The position numbers and the translations under genes were made by a program. Below the pieces are notes generated by a model. The model was not told where the DNA came from and searched no databases. It saw only the letters and a list, made by a program, of their open reading frames with translations. A stretch of DNA of 64,000 nt. Source: an uncultured Flavobacteriaceae bacterium. GTDB lineage: Bacteria > Bacteroidota > Bacteroidia > Flavobacteriales > Flavobacteriaceae. Location: positions 472,178 to 536,177 of the forward strand of contig CALSTP010000001.1 of the NCBI GenBank assembly GCA_943789305.1, given 5' to 3'. How positions within the stretch are numbered: position 1 is the stretch's first letter; each line of letters begins with the position of its first letter. Below, in pieces: positions 21,822 to 59,349 of the stretch.

Positions 21822-22091
21822 TTATTTACGTAAACCTAATTCTTTTACGATTGCACGATAACGTGTAATATCTTTTGTTTTTAAATAGTCCAAAAGACTT
21901 CTTCTTTTACCTACTAGTTTTACAAGAGAACGTTCTGTGTTAAAGTCTTTACGATTATTTTTTAAATGTTCAGACAAATGGTTAATTCTGTGAGAAAACA
22001 AAGCAATTTGTCCTTCAGCAGATCCGGTGTCTGATTTAGATTTCCCGTGTTTTTCGAAAATCTTTTCTTTTACTTCTTTAGATAAATACAT
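21822..22091 (-). CDS. rpsO: Ribosomal protein S15 (uS15)
   Basis: 89-residue primary 16S rRNA-binding protein of the small subunit platform. The family core DTGSAEGQIALFSHRINHLSEHLK and the segment LVKLVGKRRSLLDYLK with terminal YRAIVKELGLRK are intact. Upstream of pnp as in most bacteria; a TATCTTTG promoter box lies about 47 bases before the start. Confidence 0.97.
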   Translation of the reverse strand: MYLSKEVKEKIFEKHGKSKSDTGSAEGQIALFSHRINHLSEHLKNNRKDFNTERSLVKLVGKRRSLLDYLKTKDITRYRAIVKELGLRK

Positions 22092-56341: not shown

Positions 56342-56716
56342 ATGGCAAGAATATCAGGAGTAGACATTCCTAAGCAGAAACGTGGCGTTATCGCTTTGAC
56401 CTATATCTTTGGAATAGGAAAAAGTCGTGCCGAAAAGATTTTAGCAGCAGCTAAAGTAGATGAAAACAAGAAAGTAGCAGATTGGTCTGACGAAGAAACT
56501 GGAGCAATTCGTGAAGCTGTAGCGGCTTTTAAAATTGAAGGTGAATTACGATCAGAAATTCAATTAAATATCAAGCGTTTAATGGATATTGGTTGCTATC
56601 GAGGAATTCGACACAGATCAGGACTTCCTCTGAGAGGTCAACGCACCAAAAATAATTCACGTACACGTAAAGGAAAACGTAAAACGGTTGCTAACAAAAA
56701 GAAAGTAACCAAATAA
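56342..56716 (+). CDS. rpsM: Ribosomal protein S13 (uS13)
   Basis: 124-residue protein forming the B1 bridges and touching P-site t[60 protein letters not shown] and a lysine-rich tail. First gene of the alpha group. Confidence 0.98.
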
Positions 56717-56725
56717 TCTTTGACT

Positions 56726-57109
56726 ATGGCTAAAACAGCAAGCAAAAAAAGAAAAGTAATTGTTGAATCAGTTGGTGAAGCACATATTAATGCTTCCTTT
56801 AACAACATAATCATCTCTTTGACCAACCTAAAAGGGGAAGTAATCTCTTGGTCATCTGCAGGGAAAATGGGATTTCGTGGTTCAAAGAAGAATACTCCAT
56901 ATGCAGCTCAAACTGCTGCTGAAGATTGTGCTAGAGTTGCTCAAGAAGCAGGTTTACGCCGTGTAAAGGTTTTTGTTAAAGGACCTGGAAATGGAAGAGA
57001 ATCAGCCATCAGAACCTTACATAACAATGGTATCGAAGTTACTGAGATTATCGATGTAACTCCATTACCACATAATGGATGTCGCCCTCCAAAAAGAAGA
57101 AGAGTATAA
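56726..57109 (+). CDS. rpsK: Ribosomal protein S11 (uS11)
   Basis: 127-residue 30S platform protein. ATG 56726 is preferred over an in-frame TTG two codons upstream. [39 protein letters not shown], and the C-terminal [23 protein letters not shown]-like sequence are conserved. An 84-base gap with RNA structure follows before rpsD. Confidence 0.97.
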
Positions 57110-57126
57110 TTAATTATAAATCTGCG

Positions 57127-57175
57127 AAGGAGTTCGTGTTATCGGAGGAGTTAGACCTTAATCCATAACACCCTT
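57127..57175 (+). promoter_or_regulatory. Structured RNA leader upstream of rpsD (candidate S4 autoregulatory site)
   Basis: In the largest gap of the alpha group the RNA can fold as AAGG (57127-57130) with CCTT (57172-57175); GTGTTAT (57136-57142) with ATAACAC (57165-57171); GG (57144-57145) with CC (57163-57164); and AGG (57146-57148) with CCT (57156-57158). An asymmetric AGTTC bulge and one bulged C separate the helices. It ends 18 bases before the rpsD start. S4 represses its own operon in E. coli and B. subtilis; assigning that role here is inference. Confidence 0.5.
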
Positions 57176-57193
57176 TGTTTTAAATCTAATGCA

Positions 57194-57799
57194 ATGGCAA
57201 GATATACCGGTCCAAAAACTAAAATAGCTAGAAAATTCGGGGAACCGATTTTTGGTGCTGACAAATCGTTTGAAAAACGTAATTACCCTCCAGGCCAACA
57301 CGGGAACAACCGTCGCCGAGGTAAAAAGTCAGAATATGCTATCCAATTAATGGAAAAGCAAAAAGCAAAATATTCTTACGGGATTTTGGAACGTCAGTTT
57401 CGAATTCTTTTTGAACGTGCTAGTAGAAGTAAAGGTGTAACTGGTGAGGTTCTCCTTCAACTTTGTGAATCTCGTTTAGACAATGTAGTATTTCGTTTAG
57501 GAATTGCTCCTACAAGAAGTGCAGCACGTCAATTGGTCTCTCACAGACATATTACAGTCAATGGCTCTTTAATCAACATTCCTTCTGCACACATAAAAGC
57601 AGGTGATGTTATAGGAGTTCGTGAGAAATCAAAATCACTATCAACAATTACACAATCATTAGATCGTAATTCGTCGGTATACGAATGGCTTACATGGAAC
57701 AGTGCAACCCTAGAAGGTACTTTTGTTTCTACACCACTTCGTCTTCAAATTCCTGAGAACATCAAGGAACAATTAATCGTAGAATTATATTCTAAATAA
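57194..57799 (+). CDS. rpsD: Ribosomal protein S4 (uS4)
   Basis: 201-residue primary 16S rRNA-binding protein. The N-terminal segment [16 protein letters not shown] has no zinc-binding cysteines, so this is the zinc-free type. [22 protein letters not shown], the S4 domain [35 protein letters not shown] and the terminal [10 protein letters not shown] are standard. Preceded by the structured leader at 57127-57175. Confidence 0.98.
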
Positions 57800-57820
57800 T
57801 AACCACTGAAGTTTACACTT

Positions 57821-58813
57821 ATGGCTATACTTAATTTTCAAAAACCTGACAAAGTTATCATGATCGATTCATCTGAATTCGAAGGGAAATTCGAATTCCG
57901 CCCTCTTGAACCAGGATATGGACTGACCGTTGGTAATGCTCTTCGAAGAGTGTTACTTTCATCACTTGAGGGGTTCGCAATCACTTCTGTCAAAATCGAT
58001 AATATTGATCACGAGTTTTCAACAATTCCTGGAATTGTAGAAGATGTAACTGAGATTATTCTCAACCTAAAGCAAGTTCGTTTCAAACGTCAAATTGAAG
58101 ATTTAGACAATGAAAAAGTGACGATCGCTATCGGTGGGCAAGACCAACTGAAAGCTTCTGATTTTCAAAAATTCATCTCAGGTTTTCAAGTTTTAAATCC
58201 TAACCACGTTATCTGTAATTTAGAGAGAAGCGTTCAATTAAATATGGAATTAACCATTGAAAAAGGTCGTGGTTATGTCCCAGCAGAGGAAAACAAGAAA
58301 GCAAATCCTGAGTTGGGAACCATTGCAATTGATTCTATTTATACTCCTGTTAAAAATGTTAAGTTTAGCATTGAAAACTTCAGAGTTGAACAAAAAACCG
58401 ATTACGAAAAATTAGTTTTCGAAATTTTAACTGACGGTTCTATTCATCCTAAAGATGCATTGACCGAGGCTGCTAAAACGTTAATACACCACTTCTTGTT
58501 ATTTTCTGATGAGCGTATTACTCTTGAAGCAGATGAAATAGCTCAATCGGAAACTTATGACGAGGAATCTTTACATATGCGTCAATTGTTGAAAACAAAA
58601 TTAATTGACATGGATCTATCGGTTCGTGCTCTTAATTGTTTAAAGGCAGCTGAGGTTGATACTCTTGGAGATTTGGTGTCATACAACAAAAATGATCTGA
58701 TGAAATTCAGAAACTTTGGTAAAAAATCTCTTACAGAATTAGATGAATTAGTTGCAGTTAAGGGGCTTACCTTTGGTATGAATCTTGCGAAGTATAAATT
58801 AGATAAAGACTAA
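57821..58813 (+). CDS. rpoA: RpoA, RNA polymerase alpha subunit
   Basis: 330-residue subunit that starts core assembly. The N-terminal dimerisation domain has [28 protein letters not shown] and [15 protein letters not shown]; the C-terminal domain (about 255-325) has [22 protein letters not shown] and [16 protein letters not shown] for UP-element and activator contact. Located between rpsD and rplQ. Confidence 0.98.
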
Positions 58814-58836: not shown

Positions 58837-59349
58837 ATGAGACACGGAAAAAAAGTAATGCATTTAGGTAGAAAAACTGCCCATCGTAAGTCTATGCTCG
58901 CCAATATGGCTTGTTCATTAATTGAACATAAAAGAATTAACACAACCGTAACCAAAGCGAAAGCATTGAAACAGTTTATCGAACCTTTGGTTACCAAATC
59001 AAAAGAGGATTCTACCCATAATCGTAGAACCACCTTTAGACACCTAAGAAATAAAGAGGCTGTTTCTACACTATTTCGCGATATAGCAAACAAAGTAGGG
59101 GATCGTCCAGGAGGTTATACTCGTATTATAAAACTAGGAAACCGACTAGGAGATAATGCAGATATGGCAATGATTGAATTGGTTGATTTCAATGAAGTTT
59201 ATTCTAACTCAGAAGAAAAGGCTAAGAAAACTACAAGAAGAAGTAGAGCTAAGAAATCGACAGCTGAGGCCACTGCAGTAGAACCAACAGCACAAACAAC
59301 TGAAACTCCTTCAGTTGAAGAGAAGAATGAAGAAAAGAGTGAAGAGTAA
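58837..59349 (+). CDS. rplQ: Ribosomal protein L17 (bL17) with low-complexity C-terminal tail
   Basis: The first about 125 residues are canonical L17 ([64 protein letters not shown]). A 45-residue tail follows: first Lys/Arg-rich ([15 protein letters not shown]), then Ala/Thr/Glu-rich and strongly acidic at the end. The tail is absent from E. coli L17 (127 residues) and is probably disordered. Last gene of the super-cluster, followed by a strong terminator. Confidence 0.97.

Follow-up and report, generated by a model that had tools for sequence, protein, structure and literature searches.

A slightly sub-threshold S4-Flavobacteria leader in the rpsK-rpsD gap of an uncultured Flavobacteriaceae bacterium, with evidence for an outer helix beyond the Rfam model

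RESULTS

The rpsK-rpsD gap and its hairpin

The DNA analyzed here is a stretch of 64,000 nucleotides from an uncultured Flavobacteriaceae bacterium (GenBank assembly GCA_943789305.1, contig CALSTP010000001.1, positions 472,178 to 536,177 of the forward strand), which we refer to as the window. Our subject is the gap between rpsK and rpsD, whose leader lies directly 5' of rpsD and is followed in turn by rpoA and rplQ (Table 1). An original prediction, made from the sequence alone, held that this gap of 84 bases is the longest in the alpha group and that it folds into stacked helices separated by a 5-base bulge and a single bulged C. The gap is indeed exactly 84 nt long, the others measuring 9 (rpsM-rpsK), 21 (rpsD-rpoA) and 23 nt (rpoA-rplQ), and the helices, the bulge and the bulged C can all be drawn at the positions predicted for them.

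Table 1. Features of the rpsK-rpsD leader and its surroundings (window coordinates).
Feature	Position	Strand	Basis or remark
rpsK (uS11)	56726-57109	+	NCBIfam match
rpsK-rpsD intergenic region, holds the leader	57110-57193	+	84 nt
Outer helix P1, 5' strand GCGAAGG, outside the Rfam model	57124-57130	+	Fold, flank-swap test, pair counts
5-nt 5'-side asymmetric bulge AGUUC, between P1 and P2	57131-57135	+	Drawing and fold
Middle helix P2, 5' strand GUGUUAU	57136-57142	+	Covariation
RF03141 match, model positions 1-33	57137-57170	+	33.7 bits, E 8.6e-5 for 501 bases searched
Bulged C	57143	+	Conservation counts
Inner helix P3, 5' strand GGAGG (family consensus GAAGG)	57144-57148	+	
Apical loop AGUUAGA	57149-57155	+	
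Inner helix P3, 3' side CCU-UAAU-CC, 4-nt bulge (family consensus CCUUAAUUC)	57156-57164	+	
Middle helix P2, 3' strand AUAACAC	57165-57171	+	Covariation
Outer helix P1, 3' strand CCUUUGU	57172-57178	+	Fold and flank-swap test
Unpaired A/U-rich linker to the rpsD start codon, 15 nt	57179-57193	+	Quartiles 13, 14, 15 in P1-bearing relatives
rpsD (uS4), presumed regulated gene and ligand source	57194-57799	+	TIGR01017, 244.6 bits (cut-off 177.2)
rpoA, presumably co-regulated	57821-58813	+	Identified by NCBIfam
rplQ, presumably co-regulated	58837-59349	+	Named by position and sequence

The outermost helix, P1, had been proposed as AAGG/CCTT and extends to seven pairs when G-U pairs are counted (57124-57130 with 57172-57178). 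Inside it lie the seven base pairs of P2 (57136-57142/57165-57171) and the inner stem P3, drawn as GG/CC (57144-57145/57163-57164) plus AGG/CCU (57146-57148/57156-57158). The minimum free energy (MFE) structure of the single sequence reproduces P1, P2 and the bulges but sets the innermost stem in a different register. Its energy of -17.7 kcal/mol compares with -12.29 (sd 2.6) for shuffled sequences, of which 5/200 did equally well or better; as this z of -2.08 is modest, the folding energy would be too little evidence by itself, whereas the comparative evidence for the fold is strong.

Identity of the element

Scanned against Rfam with default settings, the window yields only a tRNA and an S15-Flavobacteria leader. 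When the gap was compared with the Rfam ribosomal-leader families under a relaxed cut-off, as had been suggested, RF03141 (S4-Flavobacteria) matched at 57137-57170 over its full length, no non-standard pair being flagged (E 8.6e-5 over 501 bases, 0.0034 over 20 kb). The default scan missed it because its 33.7 bits fall 1.5 bits short of the gathering cut-off of 35.2 bits, which is a search threshold and no biological trait; the copy in a genome of the same genus (L257) scores 31.5 bits, 3.7 below the cut-off. The window copy has GGAGG/UAAUCC in place of GAAGG/UAAUUC and a 7-nt loop. It shares with RF03141 the bulged C, the GRAGG...CCUUAAUYC core, the P2 stem and the genes rpsD, rpoA and rplQ, and the RF03141 matches of its relatives occupy the same gap. 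The best named S4 match, a Candidatus Arcticimaribacter MAG whose S4 is 93% identical, carries the consensus core in that gap as well. Because these other family features are present, we place the element in RF03141 despite its score and take it, on sequence comparison, to belong genuinely to this known family, if slightly below the threshold.

A Flavobacteria S4 r-leader was published by Eckert and Weinberg (2020; PMC7247131). The passages of that paper that concern the motif place it upstream of rpsD, rpoA and rplQ, name S4 as the likeliest ligand by precedent ('Prior'), caution that such ligand assignments are uncertain, report no meaningful similarity to other, previously published S4 leaders or to rRNA, and mention that the additional files contain some borderline stems. 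From the matching name and genes we infer that RF03141 derives from this motif. The lineage-specific S4 leader that the original prediction proposed is thus supported and corresponds to one already described. Among other S4 leader families, S4-Clostridia (RF03140) was rejected with 0/149 matches, and S4-Bacteroidia (RF03139) gave no match in the window's own genome at E up to 0.001 under strict filters.

Distribution across genomes

RF03141 was found in 157 of the 199 genomes of the window's family, with one match per genome and 149 of them above the cut-off, versus 0/14 control genomes, so that the expected conservation in related genomes holds. In a sample of the phylum it occurred in 41/395 genomes (40 in the window's family, one elsewhere in the class) and in a sample of the order in 31/196 (30 in the family). 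One genome of the phylum sample (G433) had a weak second match of 31.3 bits. In two genomes from outside the family (G237 and G581; loci L268 and L264) the match also lies in the rpsK-rpsD gap. The label "Bacteroidota-specific" was therefore too wide, since almost all RF03141 matches come from a single family and other Bacteroidota (the control genome Bacteroides ihuae among them) carry RF03139 instead.

Comparisons below rest on two sets of loci in which some genera may occur twice: set A, 151 loci chosen by the RNA model (150 fetched plus the window's own), and set B, 80 loci found independently through the S4 protein (the best 80 of 575). Context was examined for 151 of the 157 RF03141 genomes; G099 was added later as L257, and G010, G069, G157, G188 and G192 were left out. 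All 151 set-A loci and all 80 of set B (best 80 of 575) have the arrangement rpsK-gap-rpsD. The core pattern is present in 230 of these 231 loci (including the best 80 of 575), compared with 20 of 11550 shuffled gaps, the exception being L060, whose gap measures 16 nt.

Among the 42 genomes of the family without a model match, rpsD was found in 34 and no rpsD was obtained in eight. A diverged leader precedes rpsD in 24 of the 34, recognized by pattern in 21 and by eye in three (L234, L242 and L255); with R1, a model made for this study, 23 of the 24 are recovered at E up to 1 and 18 at E up to 0.01, L248 being missed. With a diverged copy in 24/42 model-negative genomes, the flavobacterial S4 leader is more widely spread than the Rfam model reports. 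Neither pattern, eye nor R1 at E up to 1 detected a leader in the other ten of the 34 (L232, L236, L250, L251, L253, L256, L258, L265, L266 and L267), whose rpsK-rpsD gaps measure 14-48 nt. Their small genomes (1.2-2.4 Mb) suggest loss of the leader in reduced genomes; other genomes of 1.2-2.4 Mb, the window's own (2.08 Mb) included, retain it. These ten relatives are natural knock-outs for comparing S4 control.

The S4-Bacteroidia leaders also form a hairpin in the rpsK-rpsD gap (4/4 loci inspected) and share a clan (CL00119) with RF03141, but differ in sequence and stem, and we rejected a relation because R1 finds 0/4 RF03139 loci at E up to 1. Two S4-Bacteroidia leaders (L273:1501-1533, minus strand; L274:1501-1539, plus strand) likewise fold with an outer helix that is absent from RF03139. 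Both contain CGCGGCUGC, which is complementary over 9 nt to the 16S rRNA of the window's genome; since 50 of 1000 random 16-mers match as well, the complementarity may be due to chance.

Covariation and the conserved core

Covariation, on which the original prediction had staked its helices, was assessed in 71 non-redundant sequences, less than 80% identical to one another and each with 25 nt or more of 5' flank, which were aligned without structure. P2 and P3 are paired in 92.8% of cells versus 83.2% in shuffles and 25-47% when the pairing is slid, and 83 cells have double changes versus 22.2 (sd 4.4) in shuffles, although shuffles and permutations ignore relatedness. Even within the genus, UUAU/AUAA in P2 becomes UUGU/ACAA (L257). 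The outermost P2 pair is unformed in 40/71 sequences.

The unpaired positions are conserved as well. The bulged C is found in 151/151 set-A loci, a set selected by a model containing that C, and in 70 of the 79 set-B loci that have the core (set B being the best 80 of 575). Over the 230 core-bearing loci (including the best 80 of 575), the apical loop begins with A in every case, a base that the core finder favored, and ends with GA in 142 and G in 88; CCUUAAUUC is found in 214.

The pairing of model position 9 differs between Rfam and the stem that we draw. Rfam pairs position 9 with U22, yet in nine of 230 loci U22 is replaced by G with A9 retained, which breaks that pair, and the GGAGG form (five of 230) has G9 with C26 in three loci and with U26 in two, these counts including the best 80 of 575. 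A9 with C26 occurs in none of the 230 loci (best 80 of 575 included), and the diverged leader L077 has G9 with U26. Because G22 breaks 9-22 and G9 accompanies C26 or U26, we prefer A9-U26; position 9 appears to pair better with 26 than with 22, few as the cases are. The inner stem of the original prediction thus fits the substitutions better than the Rfam pairing, though RNAalifold, given the same alignment, still chooses 9-22. G9-C26 is common to the window (L001), Psychroflexus halocasei (L096) and L211, and their different loops suggest separate events.

The motif AGGAGTT does occur twice in the gap, at 57128 and 57146, but the significance once attached to the repeat did not survive comparison: across 231 gaps (set A plus set B, the latter the best 80 of 575), two copies occur in the window's own gap only and one copy in seven. 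The same-genus L257 has one copy. The repeat is therefore not a conserved feature, and we reject AGGAGTT as a protein-binding or Shine-Dalgarno-like motif, given its rarity among gaps and its distance of 66 and 48 nt from the start.

An outer helix beyond the Rfam model

The Rfam model has 33 positions and does not include P1. We examined this helix by permuting the 3' flanks among loci. In set A (147 distinct loci) the true flanks pair with -8.07 kcal/mol versus -4.04 (sd 0.15) when permuted, and in set B (70 distinct loci from the best 80 of 575) with -8.23 versus -4.04 (sd 0.23), with 0/2000 permutations reaching the true value in either set. Taken singly, the true flanks match or surpass the best 5% of unlike-flank swaps in 92/147 set-A and 45/70 set-B loci (best 80 of 575). 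In 76 sequences aligned to R1, all seven P1 pairs have double changes and 70% of cells are paired, counts that rest on an alignment fitted to the structure. These observations support P1, on comparative grounds, as an outer helix beyond the catalogued hairpin.

P1 reaches -5 kcal/mol or better in 126/150 set-A and 60/71 set-B loci (best 80 of 575). It is weaker in 35 of 221 (24/150 and 11/71, set B again being the best 80 of 575), the weakest cases having AT-rich flanks, and a further nine loci have a short 5' flank with little room for it. P1 is thus not indispensable.

Spacing, initiation region and upstream signals

The leader is fixed in position relative to the rpsD start and floats relative to rpsK. 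The distance from the end of the core to the rpsD AUG has a median of 27 nt with an sd of 1.7 in set A and 3.3 in set B (best 80 of 575), while that from the rpsK stop to the core has an sd of 41.5 and 45.7, respectively (set B as the best 80 of 575). The base of P1 lies 15 nt before the AUG in the window, the quartiles being 13, 14 and 15 nt in both sets (set B, best 80 of 575).

The last 13 nt before rpsD are 62% A over 230 loci (including the best 80 of 575), with A at -12 in 187, at -13 in 163 and at -3 in 176 of them. Position -6 is an upstream A position in Flavobacterium johnsoniae, but here it is A in only 89/230 loci and mostly T (128/230; best 80 of 575 included). For F. johnsoniae, PMC6847099 describes initiation as modulated by A's upstream of the start and by mRNA structure close to it, and proposes that bS1 contacts -12 to -15. 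For rpsD of F. johnsoniae itself, the portion of PMC9976891 that treats it describes an initiation region without a Shine-Dalgarno sequence and a reporter that hardly changes with bS21 status. The window also has an out-of-frame ATG (57189-57191) that precedes the rpsD ATG by 5 nt; just 3/231 loci (including the best 80 of 575) have any ATG in the 20 nt upstream of the rpsD start. This extra ATG could capture ribosomes as they initiate, or it may have no effect.

In the window, positions 56600-57900 contain no terminator-like site and two sigma-70-like sites, fewer than the shuffled mean of 3.1, one of them in the gap on the minus strand; we therefore rejected a promoter or terminator in the window's gap. 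Long gaps are another matter. The gap is at least 140 nt in 79 of 230 relatives, leaving 151 others (counts including the best 80 of 575), and upstream of the core we found a terminator-like stem in 52/79 (1.9 expected by shuffling) versus 3/151, and a TAnnTTTG box, which we take to be a promoter-like consensus, in 70/79 (7.6 expected) versus 4/151. The leader would then lie in the 5' UTR of such transcripts, and it stays with rpsD where rpsD seems to be self-promoted. In gaps of at least 140 nt the stem and box appear to separate rpsD-rpoA-rplQ from the other alpha-operon genes. Gaps of 100-230 nt occur in L008, L052, L058, L074 and others.

DISCUSSION

The comparisons establish by homology that the element belongs to the S4-Flavobacteria family, and they establish its location, its helices and its fixed spacing to rpsD. 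What does such a leader do? We consider it probable that S4 binds the core, that P1 is thereby locked and 30S loading blocked, and that rpsD-rpoA-rplQ is repressed. When S4 is in excess over 16S rRNA, free S4 would bind the conserved core, its target comprising the bulged C, the GRAGG/CCU stem, the 4-nt UAAU bulge and the A...G(A) loop. Binding would fix the hairpin and P1, with its base about 14 nt before the rpsD AUG, and so keep the 30S subunit off the A-rich segment around -12/-13, which may be the stand-in for a Shine-Dalgarno sequence in these bacteria. Translation of rpsD would fall, that of rpoA and rplQ would follow by translational coupling, and the upstream rpsM and rpsK would escape. 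This picture agrees with the F. johnsoniae results cited above, both on start-region structure and upstream A's and on an rpsD initiation region devoid of a Shine-Dalgarno sequence. We infer S4 as the ligand, repression, translation as the controlled step and the coupling to rpoA and rplQ; in the open-licence literature we found no published test of S4 binding or repression.

More tentatively, and with somewhat less than even confidence, we propose a larger switch in two parts, in which the catalogued 33-nt hairpin does the binding and P1 with the 5'-side bulge is the effector: the S4-bound core would lock P1, whose base is fixed about 14 nt upstream of the start codon, and would thereby shut the A-rich loading site. 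Such a switch, if real, would give bacteria that initiate without Shine-Dalgarno pairing a fitting form of autogenous control. To the published motif our analysis adds a proposed corrected inner stem, an outer stem, a rule for the spacing and a record of relatives whose copy is diverged or absent, and it gives concrete mutants for testing r-protein autoregulation in bacteria that ignore Shine-Dalgarno sequences.

The closest work-alikes are the B. subtilis rpsD leader and the E. coli alpha-operon pseudoknot, in both of which S4 is described as repressing translation of its own mRNA. The E. coli site precedes rpsM. The mechanism there is described as a pseudoknot with ribosome entrapment.

Does the core imitate the S4 site of 16S rRNA, as S4 leaders of Firmicutes and Fusobacteriales do? 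Its longest word match to the 16S rRNA of its own genome is 6-7 nt, and 157 of 500 random 12-mers reach 7; linear word matches of the core and of window segments were thus no better than random, and at this level we found no sign of rRNA mimicry. By eye there is a likeness between the 3-bp AGG/CCU hairpin and a 16S segment that is presumably helix 16, too weak to count. Since the core has no word-level likeness to its own 16S rRNA beyond chance, and the authors of PMC7247131 saw no meaningful one either, S4 is assigned as ligand from gene position. A true cis-regulatory leader of rpsD-rpoA-rplQ answering to another ligand (S11, L17, the alpha subunit or the 30S subunit) therefore deserves consideration: the discoverers assign S4 by precedent and warn of uncertainty (PMC7247131), and the other downstream genes are nearly constant, rpoA following on the same strand in 80/80 named loci and an rplQ match being present in 79/80 (best 80 of 575). 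We nonetheless regard a ligand other than S4 as unlikely, as rpsD is immediately downstream in all 231 loci (including the best 80 of 575) and S4 is described as autoregulating in E. coli and B. subtilis.

Hairpins between cistrons often serve processing or stability, and in the window the hairpin does lie within an operon, so that it might be an intercistronic element separating the rpsK and rpsD transcripts with no regulator bound. We think this improbable, because it is the distance to the rpsD start that is fixed, whereas that to the rpsK stop varies, and because the conserved bases sit in the bulges and loop (A in 230/230 loci, CCUUAAUUC in 214/230, the best 80 of 575 included), a distribution that resembles a protein-binding site. 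Still less probable is transcription attenuation, with the hairpin being or becoming a terminator before rpsD: S4 is also described as a transcription antitermination factor, but the stretch after the leader is A-rich rather than U-rich and, as noted, the region has no terminator-like site. Chance structure in an AT-rich gap, to which the modest z of the fold alone might point, is refuted by covariation, besides the RF03141 match and the conservation across genera.

Two observations elsewhere concern other RNAs of this genome. A second, fragmentary 16S-like match set (G000:C1:1195158-1196370) exists beside the full copy and is possibly a partial or mis-assembled rRNA gene. The S15-Flavobacteria leader of the window (RF03161; 22089-22145, minus strand) scores 54.5 bits, over its cut-off, and overlaps the start of an rpsO-like ORF (21822-22091), making it an ordinary second r-leader in the window.
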